NCBI GenBank assembly: GCA_029263415.1
Contig: JAJCXN010000015.1
Span: 1-64,000, forward strand
Source: Acidobacteriota bacterium
GTDB lineage: Bacteria > Acidobacteriota > Thermoanaerobaculia > Multivoradales > Multivoraceae
Reading direction: 5' to 3'
Length of the DNA stretch: 64,000 nt
In this document: in pieces, positions 30,880 to 61,980 of the stretch
Layout: each line of letters begins with the position of its first letter
Numbering within the stretch: position 1 is the first letter of the stretch
The notes under the pieces: generated by a model
What the model saw: the letters and a program-made list of their open reading frames with translations, nothing else
The model's database searches: none
What the model was told of the DNA's origin: nothing
Made by a program: the position numbers and the translations under genes

Positions 30880-32550
30880 ATGAACAAATCTAGACTGCAC
30901 TCGCTGCAACAGCCAATGCGATCCGGCGCGCTTTCGCGCACACTGCTAGCAACGAGCGCGATTCTGGTGCTTGCCAATAGCTCCTTCGCCCAGCCCAGCG
31001 AGCAGAAGCTCAAGCGTCTCAAATCCGAGCTCATCGCCTCGGTTGAGAGCCGATCCAAGTTGACCCAGGAGATGGTCGACTCCATCTTCTCGTTTGGCGA
31101 ACTCGGCTTCCAAGAGTTCGAGACCTCCAAGTACGTCACTGGCATTCTCGAAGAGAACGGTTTTGCCATTGAACGCGGAGTGAGCGGCATGCCCACTGCG
31201 TGGGTCGCTCGCTGGGGATCGGGCAAGCCTGTGATCTCGTTCGGCACCGACATCGATGGCATTCCGAAGGCTTCGCAGAAGCCGGGCGTTGCCTATCACG
31301 ACCCCATCGTTGCGGGAGCCCCAGGTCATGGCGAAGGGCACAATTCGGGACAGGCGGTCAATGTGGTCGCGGCGCTTGCATTGAAAGACCTGATGGAGCG
31401 CGAGAAGATGCCCGGCACACTTATGCTTTGGCCGGGCGTCGCCGAGGAGCAACTCGGCAGCAAAGCGTTCTTTGTGCGCGCTGGCCTGTTCGAGGATGTG
31501 GACATGGTGTTCTTCACCCATGTTGCAGATCGACTGGCGGTGTCGTGGGGTGACGCCTACGGTAGCGGTTTGGTGTCAGTGGAGTACACCTTCAACGGCA
31601 AAGCGGCTCACGGTGCTGGCGCTCCGTGGCTAGGCAAGAGCGCGCTCGACGCAGTTGAGCTCATGAACACAGCCTGGAACTTCCGCCGAGAGCATCTGCG
31701 CTTGCCCTACCGACTGCACTACGTGATCACCAACGGCGGCGACCAACCGAATGTGGTGCCGTCTCTCGCCTCGGTTTGGTACTACTACCGAGAGCTCGAC
31801 TACGACCACATCAAGCGCCTGTTCGACATTGGCGAAGTGATGGCGTCCTCCGCCGCCGCGATGACCGACACCCAAGTCAGCTCGCGCATTCTTGGCGCTG
31901 CCTGGCCGCGTCACTTCAACAAGGTGATCGCGCAGACCATGCACAACAACATCGAGCAAGTCGGCCTACCGAAATGGAGTAGCGACGACGTAGCGCTCGC
32001 GGTGGGTCTGCAAAAAGAAATGGACTTCAAACCCGACCCCAATCGCGGCCCGTACAGCGGAGTGGTCGGCCTCAGAACAGACCTGGGGCCGCTCCAAGGC
32101 CCAATTCAAGGGCCACGCTTGGGCGGCGGTTCGGACGACATCGGCGACGTCGCCTGGAATGTTCCCACCGTCACTCTCGGTTTCCCCGCCAACTTTTCCA
32201 CCGGCGGTGGCGGCCACCATTGGTCAAGTGCGGTTGCCATGGCGACACCGATCGCACACAAAGGATCGGCGGCTGGAGCCAAAGTAATAGCGATGACCGC
32301 TCTTGATTTCTTGCTCGACCCGACCAAGGTGCAAGCCTCGTGGGACTATTTCAACAAGGAACAGACCGCCGACGTCACCTACACCAACTTCGTGAGAGAG
32401 ACGGACGAGCCTGCGATCCACCTCAACAAGAGGATCATGTCCGAGTACCGCGAGGAGATGCGCAAGTTCTACTACGACCCCTCCAAGTACGACACCTACT
32501 TGGAGCAGTTAGGCATCGACTACCCAACGGTGCGGGCCGAGAACCCCTAA
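30880..32550 (+). CDS. M20 family amidohydrolase (AbgB-like), exported
   Basis: 556 residues. The N-terminus has a long signal peptide (LLATSAILVLANSSFA). M20D features follow: FGTDIDGIP, GHGEGHNSG with metal-binding His, VAEEQLGSKAFF with the catalytic Glu pair, the lid domain from about residue 225 (YTFNGKAAHGAGAPW) and HHWSSAVAMATP near the end. The closest pattern is p-aminobenzoyl-glutamate hydrolase subunit B (AbgB), about 480 residues in E. coli. Substrate specificity cannot be read. Its 3' end is 21 bases from the convergent xdhB gene; a role in purine breakdown is conceivable, but the M20 lineage is not that of allantoate amidohydrolase. AAAGAAG precedes the ATG. Confidence 0.88.
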   Translation: MNKSRLHSLQQPMRSGALSRTLLATSAILVLANSSFAQPSEQKLKRLKSELIASVESRSKLTQEMVDSIFSFGELGFQEFETSKYVTGILEENGFAIERGVSGMPTAWVARWGSGKPVISFGTDIDGIPKASQKPGVAYHDPIVAGAPGHGEGHNSGQAVNVVAALALKDLMEREKMPGTLMLWPGVAEEQLGSKAFFVRAGLFEDVDMVFFTHVADRLAVSWGDAYGSGLVSVEYTFNGKAAHGAGAPWLGKSALDAVELMNTAWNFRREHLRLPYRLHYVITNGGDQPNVVPSLASVWYYYRELDYDHIKRLFDIGEVMASSAAAMTDTQVSSRILGAAWPRHFNKVIAQTMHNNIEQVGLPKWSSDDVALAVGLQKEMDFKPDPNRGPYSGVVGLRTDLGPLQGPIQGPRLGGGSDDIGDVAWNVPTVTLGFPANFSTGGGGHHWSSAVAMATPIAHKGSAAGAKVIAMTALDFLLDPTKVQASWDYFNKEQTADVTYTNFVRETDEPAIHLNKRIMSEYREEMRKFYYDPSKYDTYLEQLGIDYPTVRAENP

Positions 32551-52578: not shown

Positions 52579-52633
52579 CTCGCCAGTCCTGCTCATCACT
52601 CCTGCTTGCCAGTCCCACTCGCCAGCCCTACTC
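52579..52633. repeat. Three imperfect 16-bp repeats at a convergent junction
   Basis: CTCGCCAGTCCTGCTC (52579-52594), CTTGCCAGTCCCACTC (52605-52620) and CTCGCCAGCCCTACTC (52618-52633) are related 16-mers. They fill the gap between the propeller gene and the CnrX-like gene, and the third runs over the latter's stop codon, so the repeat may have arisen by local duplication. Confidence 0.5.
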
Positions 52634-53059
52634 GTCGCTGTCGGTTGGCAGAAAGTGATCACTGTGCTGGTCGCCGGCACCGTGCCTCGTCAGCCAATCG
52701 TGAAATGCCTGTCGTTGCTCGGCGCTCAAAAGGTCAGCGACCTCTCGATGGACCTTCTCCATGGCGATACTGAGTGATGGTCGCATGCTCTCCCAGCTTT
52801 GTTGAACAACGCTTTGGTGCTTCTCGAACACTTGATGGATATGGTCGAGCTGTTCGGGGTCTAGGTGCAAGGAGTCCTCGAGACTAGACATCGCGGCAGC
52901 GTGCACGGCGGCACCCGACAGGCCGAGGTCAGGGACGGTGGGTGAACCTGCGACCGAGTCGGATATTGAGTGGAGTCGCTCGAGGAAGACCCCGGCCACC
53001 ACACCAACCGCAAAGATCGAGACCAGAACAAGTGCTGCTCGAACCACAGAACCTTTCAT
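52628..53059 (-). CDS. CnrX/CpxP-like membrane-anchored periplasmic sensor
   Basis: 143 residues. An N-terminal membrane anchor (ALVLVSIFAVGVVAGVFLERL) is followed by a periplasmic all-helical domain of the heavy-metal resistance/CpxP type: LHLDPEQLDHIHQVFEKHQSVVQQSW and VADLLSAEQRQAFHDWL. The C-terminus is His/Asp-rich (HGAGDQHSDHF). In the cobalt-nickel CnrYXH system the CnrX sensor has this layout and frees an ECF sigma factor from an anti-sigma. The gene overlaps the preceding membrane protein gene by ATGA and is third in the sigma operon. Confidence 0.78.
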   Translation of the reverse strand: MKGSVVRAALVLVSIFAVGVVAGVFLERLHSISDSVAGSPTVPDLGLSGAAVHAAAMSSLEDSLHLDPEQLDHIHQVFEKHQSVVQQSWESMRPSLSIAMEKVHREVADLLSAEQRQAFHDWLTRHGAGDQHSDHFLPTDSDE

Positions 53060-53424
53060 TGGTCTTCCGCTCCATTCGACGGTGAGAACTCGGGCAGCAA
53101 TTCCGCCACGCTGGGAGCCTTAGCGCCCGCCATCAAACCAGCAGCCCGCTCGCCCGGGGTCAAGGACCGCTCCAATAGACCGGCAGATGTACCTTGCAAG
53201 GTTCGCGATTCTGGCAGCGTTGCCAGAAGAGCCACCATGGCGACCACTGACGCCGCGAGCAACCATGGAGCCTGGTGCGACAGTACTGAGAGCCAGTTCG
53301 GCGCTTCGACCATTCGAGTTGCCGCGTACCTAGACAGCGGGGCCGCTGCATCGGCCCGTACCTTCTGCGCGAGATCCTCCCAGAATTCCTCATCAACCGG
53401 CAGCGGCGAGCGTGGAAAGGTCAT
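53056..53424 (-). CDS. Single-pass membrane protein, probable anti-sigma factor
   Basis: 122 residues. A cytoplasmic N-terminal part (EEFWEDLAQKVRADAA) precedes one membrane helix (APWLLAASVVAMVALLATL) and a short periplasmic tail. No zinc-binding anti-sigma motif is visible. The start codon follows the sigma gene stop directly (TAGATG) and the end overlaps the CnrX-like gene by ATGA. Size, topology and position between sigma and sensor make it the candidate anti-sigma, as CnrY is in CnrYXH. This is inference from context. Confidence 0.7.
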   Translation of the reverse strand: MTFPRSPLPVDEEFWEDLAQKVRADAAAPLSRYAATRMVEAPNWLSVLSHQAPWLLAASVVAMVALLATLPESRTLQGTSAGLLERSLTPGERAAGLMAGAKAPSVAELLPEFSPSNGAEDQ

Positions 53425-53991
53425 CTAGCCGGCCTCCGGGGCGACTTGTAACGCACGCTTGATCCCATCGCGGCCGCGATAAAGATGGGTGCGCACTGTT
53501 CCCTCGGCGATGCCCAGCATGTGGCCGGCTTCAGCACTGGTAAAACCCTCGATCTCACATAGCCGGAGACAGGTCTGCTGCATAGGCGCCAGCGCATCGA
53601 TCGCGCCCTCGAGTGCGGTTGTCGTAGCGGCGTCTCTGCATGCGGGTTCTGCGGCAGTTTCTGCCAGCCTCTCGTCTGCCAAGGAATCAGTCGGCACGAG
53701 CGCAGCGCGACGTCTTCTCTTGGACTGCATCGACCGAACCACGTTACGCAAGATAGTGAAGAACCAGGGTTCAAACGGTCGGGCGGCGTCGTAGTCTGGT
53801 AGCGCACGTACTGCGCGATGAAAGGCCTCTTGGACGGCATCCTCAGCATCTGCAACTGAGCGGGTCGACTGCCACGCAAGAGCCATCCCGCGGCGCAAGT
53901 AGCGCCGAGCGAGTCGATCGAACGCGTCCGCATCGCCACCTTGGGCCGCCCGCGCAAGTTGCTCGTCGGTGCTTTCAGTTGCATGGCTCAT
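53425..53991 (-). CDS. ECF-type RNA polymerase sigma factor
   Basis: 188 residues. Region 2 is seen at FDRLARRYLRRGMALAWQST ... DAEDAVQEAFHRAVRALPDY, with RPFEPWFFTILRNVVRS. Region 4 is at LAPMQQTCLRLCEIEGFTSA, then LGIAEGTVRTHLYRGRDGI, the -35-binding helix-turn-helix. It should direct RNA polymerase to stress promoters, released from the membrane protein encoded next. The AGGAG before the ATG at 53991 is only two bases away, which is unusually close, but no better in-frame start exists. Confidence 0.92.
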   Translation of the reverse strand: MSHATESTDEQLARAAQGGDADAFDRLARRYLRRGMALAWQSTRSVADAEDAVQEAFHRAVRALPDYDAARPFEPWFFTILRNVVRSMQSKRRRRAALVPTDSLADERLAETAAEPACRDAATTTALEGAIDALAPMQQTCLRLCEIEGFTSAEAGHMLGIAEGTVRTHLYRGRDGIKRALQVAPEAG

Positions 53992-54103
53992 AGCTCCTAG
54001 TGCCTCGTCTGCCTAGAAAGGTCAGAGGAACTCCTTGAGCTTACCTATTTTGCACAGTTCCCCGTCGGCTCAAAGCGCAACGGGGAACCAGCGCCTAATA
54101 CCC

Positions 54104-54568
54104 CTATTGCTCGATCGACGCATCGTCGTTCTGATGCAGGTGGCCGTGCAGCGAGCCATGGCCACCACGCTTGCCATGGCTGGCACCGTGACCACCGCCG
54201 TGACCGTCGTGCGCCGCGCAGTTGGCGCCGCAACCGTTGGCGCCAAAAGAATCCATCAGCATGGTGTGCATCATGTGGGTCAACGACTCCGCCTGCTCAT
54301 CACTCAGTTCAGCCATGAGGTCCGCATGCAGTTGATGAAACTCGCGCATCAGCTCGTGAGCGCTCTCGATCGTGCCCTCGAGCTTGAAGCGCTGGTCTGT
54401 CGAAAGCTCCAGGTGCTCCGCGATCTGGTCGATATGCTGCTCCATCGTCTCGCTGTCGTGACCTCTTGTTTCGGTTCCGCTAAGTCCGTGTTGCGCAACC
54501 ACGGCACCTGCCGCAACCAAACCAAACGCCATGACCATCAAAAGGCCTCGATGCAGTGTTCTCATCAT
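54104..54568 (-). CDS. His-rich exported CpxP/Spy-like protein
   Basis: 154 residues. A signal peptide (GLLMVMAFGLVAAGAVVAQ) is followed by a helical domain (MEQHIDQIAEHLELSTDQRFKLEG; LMAELSDEQAESLTHMMHTM) of the LTXXQ/Spy type, and then a tail packed with His, Gly and two Cys (CGANCAAHDGHGGGHGASHG ...). The tail should bind transition metals. It lies about 110 bases upstream of the sigma gene on the same strand, so it may be part of the same regulon, as scavenger or chaperone. AGGAG lies ten bases before the first of two tandem ATGs. Confidence 0.78.
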   Translation of the reverse strand: MMRTLHRGLLMVMAFGLVAAGAVVAQHGLSGTETRGHDSETMEQHIDQIAEHLELSTDQRFKLEGTIESAHELMREFHQLHADLMAELSDEQAESLTHMMHTMLMDSFGANGCGANCAAHDGHGGGHGASHGKRGGHGSLHGHLHQNDDASIEQ

Positions 54569-55957: not shown

Positions 55958-55991
55958 CTACTCAACCAACGCCTGATAGGTCATCTGAAGC
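55958..55991. repeat. Left att-like direct repeat (34 bp)
   Basis: Identical over all 34 bases to 57219-57252, with mismatches on both sides immediately outside. It begins CTACTCAACC and ends TCTGAAGC. It lies 21 bases after the aminotransferase stop codon. Confidence 0.9.
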
Positions 55992-56094
55992 TTTGTCCGG
56001 GGGGAGACCCCCTAGGAATGACTGGCACCAACCGCTAGTATTTACAGGGGTTAGCGGTGTTCGCCACTCGCCCCGAATCCCGCTCCGTCCGCGA

Positions 56095-56116
56095 GAAATC
56101 CCCTAGAAATCCCCTA
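56095..56116 (+). repeat. Tandem 11-bp repeats, possible integrase arm sites
   Basis: GAAATCCCCTA occurs twice in tandem (56095-56105, 56106-56116) just before the integrase start. The same 11-mer recurs at 57172-57182, followed by the variant ACCTCCCCTA, just inside the right repeat. Short repeats near both ends of an integrative element are what arm-type integrase sites look like. Confidence 0.6.
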
Positions 56117-56127
56117 GAAGAGATTCG

Positions 56128-56331
56128 ATGGCCAAGATCAACTTGACCGACAGCGCTGTCGATCGGCTCGCCACAACCAAGACCCAGGAAGACTACTGGC
56201 ACTCCAACTGGCCTTTCAAGGGGAGCTTTGGGGTCCGCGTCAGCAAGACCGGACGCAAGACTTGGGTGTGGCTTGAGACCTGGAAAGAAGACGGAAAGCC
56301 GAAGACGCACTCAGATGGAGTACCGCCTTGA
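56128..56331 (+). pseudogene. Truncated tyrosine integrase, N-terminal arm-binding domain only
   Basis: 67 residues. LTDSAVDRLATTKTQEDYWH followed by GSFGVRVSKTGRKTWVW is the start of the DUF4102 arm-DNA-binding domain of phage P4-like integrases, which normally continue to about 400 residues with a catalytic R-H-R-Y domain. Here the frame stops right after KPKTHS and no catalytic domain is found downstream in any frame, so the gene has lost about 80 percent of its length. AGAAGAG before the ATG is a good ribosome site. Confidence 0.75.
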
Positions 56332-56420
56332 AGCCGCACAGCTGGAGCTGCGGACGACGACCAAGCTACGCTCATCATTGGAGCCACGGTAGCACGGGGC
56401 CGGCTACAACTATCTCGCAT

Positions 56421-57041
56421 TCATGCCGTTGGCGGTCCCATCTCAAGACCAATCTCAATGTCGGCAGCGCAAGCGATCGTTCCCGCAGATGTTCTCACAA
56501 TCACTTCCATACTGCGTGTGGTTTCCGCGAACCCCCCGTGGAACCGAACCGGGCTCCCCGGAATCGGCTCACGATCCGGCTCCCAGCTCCCACCACTATG
56601 GTCGACATAGTTCTGCGGGTACCTAAGCTGGGGAGTCCACGCGGTCTCGTCGCAATGCCGTTTCCCTGTTGAACTCCAGCTTTGGAAGCAGTGGCCGAGC
56701 GGTGCCTTTCTCGAAAACAAAACACGTCCCTCGCTGGACCGGATCTCGACATCAACCGTAGCGTCCCATTGCCAGGGAGGTTCCTCAAGCTCACAACTAG
56801 CCACATTCATGAACACCACCGCGACATCTTTGGACCATCGCTTTATTCGGAAACGGTGCACTTGGCCATCCCCTAGTGAGATGCCGGAGAAGATCGCTTC
56901 GTCGTAGCTGATGGGGCCCAGTCCTATCCGGTAGAACTCACCGTCGCCCGAGGGAGCAGACAGGATCAGGATCACTACAAGCAGTAGCAGGGTGCCGACC
57001 AGTGCCAACAGGAATTTCCAGCAGCCCTGCCTAGTCTTCAC
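56421..57041 (-). CDS. Membrane-anchored hypothetical protein inside the element
   Basis: 206 residues starting at GTG. One N-terminal hydrophobic segment (FLLALVGTLLLLVVILILSA) anchors or exports the protein; the rest is beta-rich with several Cys and Trp residues (ASCELEEPPWQWDATVDVEI). The family is not recognised. It is the only apparently intact gene between the two 34-bp repeats, so it may be cargo of the former island. Confidence 0.6.
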   Translation of the reverse strand: MKTRQGCWKFLLALVGTLLLLVVILILSAPSGDGEFYRIGLGPISYDEAIFSGISLGDGQVHRFRIKRWSKDVAVVFMNVASCELEEPPWQWDATVDVEIRSSEGRVLFSRKAPLGHCFQSWSSTGKRHCDETAWTPQLRYPQNYVDHSGGSWEPDREPIPGSPVRFHGGFAETTRSMEVIVRTSAGTIACAADIEIGLEMGPPTA

Positions 57042-57218
57042 GGTTCTCTCTCAATTCAATCGGCTCAGCCATCACGCTCCACACTTCAAGGATACCCGAC
57101 GACCTCGAGGTCAGCCGCTCGACGCCTTCAACGCTGCATGCAGGAAGCCCATGACCCGACCAACGTAACAGGAAATCCCCTAAACCTCCCCTAAGACAGC
57201 GTCAAACCATTGATTTTA

Positions 57219-57252
57219 CTACTCAACCAACGCCTGATAGGTCATCTGAAGC
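57219..57252. repeat. Right att-like direct repeat (34 bp), 3' end of serine hydrolase gene
   Basis: The perfect second copy of 55958-55991. On the minus strand it encodes the last ten residues of the serine hydrolase (LQMTYQALVE) plus the TAG stop. Together with the inward-facing integrase remnant, it marks this gene end as the integration site. Confidence 0.9.
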
Positions 57253-58595
57253 ATCGACTCTCGAATCGGCTGCGTGCCATCCGGCAACAGCTGGGTGAGC
57301 ACGATGCCAACGATGTCCTTCTCGCGATCGACCCAGAAGTGAGTGGTCGCGGCACCGCCCCAGCCGAAGATGCCCTTGGAGGTAGCGACCCCAGTGAGCG
57401 CTGGATCGATGGTGACCGAGCCGGTCAGACCGAAGCCCACGCCGCCGGTACCGACACCAGGGAAACCGCCCTGCAAACTGGACAGTGGAGACTCACCCAT
57501 GGATGGCGGCAGGTGGTTAGCCGTCATCATCTCGACCGTTGACGGTGCAAGCAAGCGCACGCCGTCGAGTTCGCCGTCGTTGACCAACATTTGTGCGAAG
57601 CGCAGGTAGTCAGCCGCGGTACCGACCAAGCCTGAACCACCCATGTCGAGATTCGATTCGGTGATGTAGGGAGATGTACTCGGCACCTCGAACTGCATGA
57701 TGGTCTTGTCGGGCTTAGGCACGTAGTTGGCGGCGAAACGATTGATCTTGTCGGCGGGCACGTGAAAGCCAGTGTCGACCATGCCGAGCGGATCAAAGAT
57801 GCGTTCCTTCAAGAAGTCGCCAAACGTCTGACCTGAGATCACCTCGACCAGCCGGCCCAAGACGTCCATGCCCACGCTGTAGTTCCACGCAGTGCCCGGT
57901 TGCGCGATCAGCGGAACCTCGGCCAGCGCCTGCGACCAGGTCTCGAGGTTTTCGAACTTCGAGTCCATGCGGGTGCCACCGATGCCGCGCTTTTGGTACT
58001 CGATACCGATCGGATTGGGGAAGAAGTTGTAGGAGAGACCAGAAGTGTGGGTCAACAAGTGATGAATAGTGATCGCTCGCGCAGCTTCCGTTTCCATCGC
58101 ATCACCTGCGCCGCCAGTGCGTACCCTCATGGTCTTGAACTCGGGCAGGTACTTTGAGATCGGATCGCTCAGCAGGAAATGGCCTTCTTCGTAGAGCATC
58201 AAGACGGCAGCACCGGTGATCGGTTTGCTCTGCGAATAGAGGCGGACGATGGTGTCTTTCTCCATTGGCAACTTCTCTGAGACATGACGAGAACCCACCG
58301 CCTCGAAGTGCACAACTTCGCCATGGCGTGCCACCAGCGTGACGGCGCCGGGAATCTGCTGGGCATCGACGTAGCGTTGCATGCGCGCGGTGATTCGATC
58401 GAGGCGTTCGCTTGAGAACCCGTGAGCTTCCGGTTCCGCGGTCGTGGTGTCCGCCGCGTTGTTCACCGCCGCTAGCGGCGGTGCGACCAAAACCACGAGC
58501 AGCACCGTGAGCAACATGGTCCCAGCGGCGGTCGCCCAAGCTGCAGGTGCAGCGCTCAGACTTCTCCGCGTCGGTACTCGTGTTCGGTTCTTCAT
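57219..58595 (-). CDS. Serine hydrolase, class C beta-lactamase/esterase fold, exported
   Basis: 458 residues. A signal peptide (MLLTVLLVVLVAPPLAAV) precedes the domain. The nucleophile motif SxxK reads YSQSKPI, the second motif is WNYSVGMDVLG, and the third region is GWGGAATTHFWVD. This pattern is that of family VIII-like esterases and penicillin-binding-like hydrolases rather than true AmpC. The substrate is unknown. Its 3' end is the integration target of the small element downstream, and the coding sequence itself was kept intact. Confidence 0.87.
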   Translation of the reverse strand: MKNRTRVPTRRSLSAAPAAWATAAGTMLLTVLLVVLVAPPLAAVNNAADTTTAEPEAHGFSSERLDRITARMQRYVDAQQIPGAVTLVARHGEVVHFEAVGSRHVSEKLPMEKDTIVRLYSQSKPITGAAVLMLYEEGHFLLSDPISKYLPEFKTMRVRTGGAGDAMETEAARAITIHHLLTHTSGLSYNFFPNPIGIEYQKRGIGGTRMDSKFENLETWSQALAEVPLIAQPGTAWNYSVGMDVLGRLVEVISGQTFGDFLKERIFDPLGMVDTGFHVPADKINRFAANYVPKPDKTIMQFEVPSTSPYITESNLDMGGSGLVGTAADYLRFAQMLVNDGELDGVRLLAPSTVEMMTANHLPPSMGESPLSSLQGGFPGVGTGGVGFGLTGSVTIDPALTGVATSKGIFGWGGAATTHFWVDREKDIVGIVLTQLLPDGTQPIRESMLQMTYQALVE

Positions 58596-60220: not shown

Positions 60221-61522
60221 TTACCAACCGTAGGCCGACCGAATGCGCGCCGGGAGTTCCTCAAACACGATCGGATTTGATCTGTCGCTGTTCGCCATGA
60301 TGATGAAGCCATTGCCACCTTTGAGCGAGCCCTGGAAGTTCGCACGGAACCCCCAGTTGCCACCCGTATGACCGAAGTACAGAGCTTGTTCGCCTGCAGG
60401 TGCAGGCCTATGAGCGGACTCTGAGCCCACTGTGAAGCCCAACGCGTAGTGGTCGACGCCGCTGGGGGTCACCATCTTGCGAATCATGTCCTGACTCAGC
60501 ACCTTGTTGGAACGACCATCCAGCGACAGTTGCACTTCGATCATGAACTTGGCCAAATCACTTGGCGTCGTCCACAGACCCGCTGCATACGACTCTGGGT
60601 AGACGTGCCAACGGACAGCATCTGAACCATGGACGCCGTCGCTCTTTCGAAGGTCGTTCGCCACCGCACCCTTGTGCACCAACGCAGCAGGCAACGGTTG
60701 GCAGACACAGCTATCTGCCATCTTGAGGGGTTCCAGCACCGTCTTGGTCACGATCTCACCAAACGGACGCTTGAACATGTCACTCATGGCGAGCTGAAGG
60801 ATGGTGGAACCACCGCCCGAGTATTGATATTTCGCGCCTGGTTCCCAGCCCACGGTGACCCTCGGCGTGTTGGCTACGCGGTCGGCATCCTCCGCGCTTG
60901 CGCCGACGATCTCGGGGACGGTAGGCAAGGGCGCTCCCGGCTTGTATCCAGGGAACCCGGAGACCGTTGTGCCCGCTGTCATGCTGAGCAGCAACCGCGG
61001 AGTGACCTTGGTCTTCGAGAGAAACTCGGCTTCTTCAACCAGTTGCCAGGATTCGAGCAGTGAGTTGATGTCGTTATCCAAGCCAAAGCGCCCGTCCTGA
61101 ACCGCTCGCAGTACACTCATCGCAGACACCGGTTTGCTGATCGAGGCCGCTTGGAAGCGCGTGCTGGTATCGGCTTTGATGCCTGCAGTCCGGTCAGCGA
61201 GACCCCACGCCTTGGCCCAATGCACTTTGTAGTCCTTGACCACCGCAACACTGATCGCCGTGGTTTTGCGCTCGGCCAACAACTCCGCAAGCGACAGGCC
61301 AGCGTCACCTTCAGCGCCAGCGTCGCGAGCCCCTTCGATCTTTGCGATCACCGCTAAGACGTCGGCCGCGAGCGGCGCTAAGGGGCCCTGTGATGGCGCG
61401 TCCTGGGCGGGAACGGCCGAAGCGACCAGAGTCAAGGTCACCAGCACTATGATGACGTAGCGAAGCGCCTGAGTTCGGGCACCGCGCCTGTCGTCTGTGA
61501 ACGTGGTTGTGCAATTCCTCAT
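60221..61522 (-). CDS. Serine hydrolase, beta-lactamase fold, exported
   Basis: About 433 residues. The ATG at 61522 overlaps the upstream stop (ATGA) and opens a signal segment (YVIIVLVTLTLVASAVPAQ). Motifs: FQAASISKPVSA gives SxxK, YQYSGGGSTILQ gives YxG at the second motif, and FGHTGGNWGF gives HTG at the third. The region between them (LLSMTAGTTVSGFPGY) is typical of large bacterial beta-lactamase-related esterases. It differs in all three motifs from the hydrolase at 57219, so the two are not a recent duplication. It is co-translated with the small membrane protein gene before it. Confidence 0.87.
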   Translation of the reverse strand: MRNCTTTFTDDRRGARTQALRYVIIVLVTLTLVASAVPAQDAPSQGPLAPLAADVLAVIAKIEGARDAGAEGDAGLSLAELLAERKTTAISVAVVKDYKVHWAKAWGLADRTAGIKADTSTRFQAASISKPVSAMSVLRAVQDGRFGLDNDINSLLESWQLVEEAEFLSKTKVTPRLLLSMTAGTTVSGFPGYKPGAPLPTVPEIVGASAEDADRVANTPRVTVGWEPGAKYQYSGGGSTILQLAMSDMFKRPFGEIVTKTVLEPLKMADSCVCQPLPAALVHKGAVANDLRKSDGVHGSDAVRWHVYPESYAAGLWTTPSDLAKFMIEVQLSLDGRSNKVLSQDMIRKMVTPSGVDHYALGFTVGSESAHRPAPAGEQALYFGHTGGNWGFRANFQGSLKGGNGFIIMANSDRSNPIVFEELPARIRSAYGW

Positions 61523-61980
61523 CGGGCCAGAACCTCTTTGTTGCGCACCAACTGCTCTCGGACGAACCCCAACAAGCCCAGCGCTATCCCACACAGCACC
61601 AAGAACTTCGCCACTTCGAGAACAACAAAACCAAGGTGAAGCGAACTCGGCGGAAGGGTCTCGCCGGCAATGACCCGCAGCGTGCGTGCGTCTAAGAACG
61701 GCATGATGCCGAGCCGTTGCACAGCAAGGATTCCAACAGCGAAGAGAGGCCAACGCCAACGCACGCCTCGCAAGGCCACCAGCCCGACCAAGAAAGCGAC
61801 ACCAAGCACAGCTTCGGTCACTCCGAGCCAGAAGAACTGGACTCGGCCGACATCCAGTGCAACAGGCAGTGTCAGTAGAGCCGACTGGAACTTCGCCGGA
61901 GCCGCCACCAACGATCCGCCAAGGGCAACCCCAGCCCAAAGGCCAGCTAGTCCCTGCACCGTCACTGGTCGGATGTTCAT
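61519..61980 (-). CDS. Four-helix membrane protein of unknown function
   Basis: About 153 residues. The ATG at 61980 has a strong AGGAGG six bases upstream, better than the longer frame from 62046. Four hydrophobic helices are seen (LAGLWAGVALGGSLVAA, FFWLGVTEAVLGVAFLVGL, WPLFAVGILAVQRL, VVLEVAKFLVLCGIALGLL). APAKFQSALLTLPVALDVGR between the first two looks conserved, but I cannot name the family. It is first gene of a two-gene operon with the serine hydrolase. Confidence 0.7.
   Translation of the reverse strand: MNIRPVTVQGLAGLWAGVALGGSLVAAPAKFQSALLTLPVALDVGRVQFFWLGVTEAVLGVAFLVGLVALRGVRWRWPLFAVGILAVQRLGIMPFLDARTLRVIAGETLPPSSLHLGFVVLEVAKFLVLCGIALGLLGFVREQLVRNKEVLAR

Follow-up and report, generated by a model that had tools for sequence, protein, structure and literature searches.

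The 64,000-nucleotide stretch of DNA analysed here (the window) contains a gene for a serine hydrolase whose 3' terminus is duplicated a short distance beyond the end of the gene. The site is located inside a 372-kb contig of a draft genome of 6.89 Mb in 60 contigs, and the space between the two copies is occupied by the beginning of an integrase gene, an orphan open reading frame (ORF) and two pairs of short tandem repeats. The features are listed below by window position.

55958..55991, minus strand: displaced att copy on the integrase side, a duplicate of the last 34 bp of the hydrolase gene and 100% identical to 57219-57252
56096..56117, plus strand: left tandem pair of 11-bp arm-like sites (AAATCCCCTAG x2), in a position that matches the GTACCTAGACA pairs of relatives
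56128..56331, plus strand: truncated tyrosine integrase, N-terminal arm-binding domain only (67-aa ORF, about 64 homologous residues)
56421..57041, minus strand: orphan ORF of 206 aa with a GTG start and an N-terminal membrane anchor, a cargo gene
57173..57193, plus strand: right tandem pair of 11-bp arm-like sites (AAATCCCCTAAACCTCCCCTA), with motif, spacing and orientation as in the left pair
57219..57252, minus strand: att copy at the target, the native hydrolase gene 3' end with C-terminal codons and stop conserved in orthologues
57219..58595, minus strand: target gene, intact beta-lactamase-fold serine hydrolase of 458 aa (PF00144, 4.9e-69)

The two 34-bp copies are direct repeats that lie 1261 bp apart from start to start, as an earlier note on this DNA had claimed, with 1227 bp between them, and a repeat of this length has a chance expectation of about 3e-11 in 64 kb. 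When up to three mismatches are allowed the whole genome contains these two copies only, and the reading of the 34-mer as a dispersed motif was rejected on these grounds. The note had also taken the perfect repeats as a sign of recent decay, or of an element that could still be mobilised in trans; their perfection stands but the recency is weakly supported, since 34 bases without a mismatch bound the divergence only to below about 8%. On the minus strand the right copy reads GCTTCAGATGACCTATCAGGCGTTGGTTGAGTAG, which comprises the last ten codons of the hydrolase gene (LQMTYQALVE), the stop codon and one further base. Orthologues of the hydrolase in the family are about 54% identical and of the same extent, and most of them likewise end in LTYQAI(V/L)(D/E)-stop, which identifies the right copy as the original end of the gene and the other as the displaced one, and bears out the view that the right repeat is the 3' terminus of an intact protein-coding gene. 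Another, distinct PF00144 beta-lactamase-fold gene is encoded near the target gene at 60221-61939 on the minus strand.

The truncated integrase matches the Pfam family PF13356 (Arm-DNA-bind_3) with E=5e-4 and 20.5 bits, which is under the 27-bit cut-off because the stub is cut short: it covers 46 of the 83 positions of the arm domain and the last part of the domain is absent. Its alignment with the N-termini of full-length integrases, at 37-43% identity, runs to about residue 64 and the G-x-Y-P motif, in agreement with the P4-type assignment made in the earlier note. Beyond this point there is no trace of core-binding or catalytic domains in any frame of the element. As the stub ends before the last part of the arm domain, the usual mode of DNA binding is improbable for it. 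It had been suggested that a full integrase with the same N-terminus be sought elsewhere in the genome; none is present, and the best other match has an E value of 0.36. The remaining gene between the repeats is the single orphan that had been described. The codon score of its frame is the best among the six and yet weak, and homology searches returned neither a family match nor a convincing homologue. In the predicted structure of the protein a helix at residues 4-28 is confident and the remainder consists of low-confidence beta strands, and with a mean pLDDT of 54.5 the fold is too poor for a fold search.

The window contains the motif AAATCCCCTA three times only, at 56096, 56107 and 57173, against an expectation of 0.02, and a fourth 11-bp unit is present in degenerate form (TCCCCTA at 57187). 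The 11-bp repeats near both ends that had been compared to arm sites thus form a pair at each end, as they do in intact relatives, and the motif has CCTA(G/A) in common with that of the closest relatives. Because pairs are present at both ends they are read as arm sites of the integrase, to which they would have served as binding sites. Direct repeats spaced by one helical turn are also the layout of the operators of excisionases, or RDFs (PMC7498355), which would allow the pairs to be bound by an excisionase and not by the arm domain of the integrase. This assignment is rather unlikely: a pair at either end is the pattern that arm sites would give, and the tandem motif differs from one integrase to the next, although neither point is decisive.

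Related loci were gathered with full-length integrases rather than with the arm domain alone, which is too variable for a degenerate pattern. Full-length integrases with a related N-terminus are present in the order and the phylum, and two complete islands come from the same order, one of 30.5 kb (G029:C6) and one of 35.2 kb (G026:C19). In the former the copies of a tRNA-Arg core are located at 541 and 31064 and the integrase at 773; tandem GTACCTA pairs at 686/697 and 706/717 precede the integrase, and a second pair at 30942/30953 precedes the intact tRNA-Arg. In the latter a distance of 35,197 bp separates the core copies, each side carries a pair, and the right pair reads GTACCTAGGTGGTACCTAAG. 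The integrase of both islands adjoins the displaced tRNA piece while the intact tRNA is found at the far end, and the order and direction of the parts in the window are those of the complete islands, with the hydrolase gene replacing the tRNA. On the integrase side, both islands and most of the 39 related loci share one order, in which the displaced 3' part of the target is followed by an 11/12-bp tandem pair and then by the integrase. In 34 of the 39 a minus-strand, tRNA-like 3' part lies upstream of the integrase, and 23 of the 39 have a tandem repeat of period 11/12 that exceeds all 20 shuffles. ARAGORN found almost no intact tRNA at these loci, which is expected of displaced pieces. The distance from core to arm sites is mostly 115-173 bp in the related loci and about 118 bp in the window. 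The right arm pair of the window, in contrast, is 58 bp from the core, compared with 122 bp in both complete islands, which was counted against the interpretation as an island.

Across the clade (L035-L049, L073-L096) 11- or 12-bp tandem repeats, often with an ACC(C/T) core, lie between the displaced tRNA piece and the start of the integrase, which is regularly found beside the displaced piece and not beside an intact tRNA. At one locus (L038, G033:C198) the integrase ORF that begins at 1495 continues as unrelated sequence after about residue 170 and an intact tRNA-Arg adjoins it; this may be a decayed or chimeric integrase, or a misassembly. The genome that harbours the window encodes two more full-length Arm-DNA-bind_3 integrases, L060 (G000:C34:6578-7666) and L061 (G000:C51:374318-375400), each of which adjoins a tRNA 3' fragment and has its own tandem repeat, of period 12 and 11, respectively. 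Their core-to-arm distances are 115 and 116 bp, and the two loci are probably further islands.

The 1.26-kb element is very probably the deletion remnant of an island with a P4-like, Arm-DNA-bind_3 tyrosine integrase that inserted where the hydrolase gene ends. The intact relatives support the earlier description, in which a relic island bounded by att repeats carries a truncated P4-type integrase, has arm-like sites near either end and uses the 3' terminus of a protein gene as target. The island would have entered the gene end by site-specific recombination, with strands exchanged inside the 34 bp that both copies share, and as this identity spans the last codons and the stop, integration would have restored the gene end and displaced the other copy to the opposite side of the island. 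An internal deletion would then have taken the integrase from about residue 64 onward together with, probably, most of the cargo, so that both att copies, both pairs of arm sites, the integrase stub and one small gene would be what is left over. It counts against this reading that among the relatives compared, a set with no genome of the same genus, neither an empty site nor a full-length copy of the element was found, and that no product of excision is visible. The hydrolase neighbourhoods in the family are not syntenic with the window, as the hydrolase of the relatives has other neighbours.

A duplication of the gene end that did not involve an integrase, for instance a segmental duplication next to which the stub is present by chance, would fit with the lack of an observed empty site. 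It is hardly credible, however, given that the stub, the arm pairs at both ends and the order and direction of the parts all match intact islands. It is also very improbable that the complete island exists and that its interior was collapsed in the assembly; the genome is indeed a draft of 60 contigs, but the site lies inside its 372-kb contig and the absent part of the integrase was sought elsewhere in the genome and not found. The perfect 34-bp copies and the retention of both arm pairs mean that the sites for a cognate integrase should still be present, and from their sequence the ends of the element look competent for recombination. This raises the question of whether the element is a stable, non-autonomous mini-element that is excised and spread in trans by the integrase of a sister element. 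Such a lifestyle is improbable for an element that is present as a single copy in its genome, and whose arm pattern is absent from the 147 other genomes of the class (148 in all) and has no match in viral contigs. L060 and L061 have tRNA cores and arm repeats (TCTGTCCCTTTT and TTGATTGCCAG) unlike those of the window, so neither is an evident helper. The deletion remnant is unable to excise by itself and would need a cognate integrase from elsewhere.

The choice of a protein gene had been called unusual, which applies to this integrase clade, since nearly all relatives use a tRNA gene, but not to genomic islands in general, where protein-gene targets are well documented and common (PMC12884075; PMC4482086). 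There are no tRNA genes in the window. The 34-mer contains the sequence ATCAGG, which is the 3' side of the anticodon stem in the targets of most relatives, and its distance from the arm pair, about 118 bp, is close to the 115 and 116 bp of L060 and L061. This is a weak match of six bases, equalled by 2.4% (6-bp core) or 9.5% (23-bp profile) of random 34-mers drawn from the window, so that the resemblance to a tRNA half-site is suggestive as a lead only. The fuller proposition, that an integrase whose clade usually inserts into tRNA anticodon loops took the 3' end of a protein gene via this tRNA-like half-site at the matching arm distance, and that a cognate integrase acting in trans could still excise the remnant, is improbable.

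The remnant is well preserved and, as a fossil of an already known type of element, essentially ordinary. It shares with the complete islands of the same order the succession of displaced gene end, tandem pair, integrase, cargo, tandem pair and intact target as well as a related N-terminal domain, and differs from them in its target, in the loss of the catalytic part of the integrase and in its length of 1.26 kb as opposed to 30-35 kb. Formally it may also be classed as similar to CIMEs, cis-mobilizable elements which are decayed ICEs or IMEs that keep attL and attR (PMC5704250). It retains both att sites at the 3' end of an intact gene and lacks functional integration and transfer genes, with no transfer genes left and only a stub and one orphan ORF in their place. 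Unlike a CIME, however, it still has the integrase stub and there is no sign that its parent was an ICE or IME, nor is there a neighbouring element in accretion, by which a CIME can be mobilised in cis. The dusA islands are likewise tyrosine-integrase islands that restore the protein gene they enter, but they use the 5' end of their target and another integrase family (PMC4482086).

The remnant leaves general views unchanged. It provides a clean record of the decay of a genomic island with its ends still legible, and suggests a route by which integrases of tRNA genes may come to target protein genes. In phyla that are poorly known, the 11/12-bp tandem pairs beside the integrase can serve as a practical marker when islands of this clade are mapped. 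Elsewhere in the window, inspection of the translations by eye at 52628-54568 on the minus strand suggests a small set with an RNA-polymerase sigma-factor-like protein (53425-53991) that is flanked by small membrane or exported proteins.
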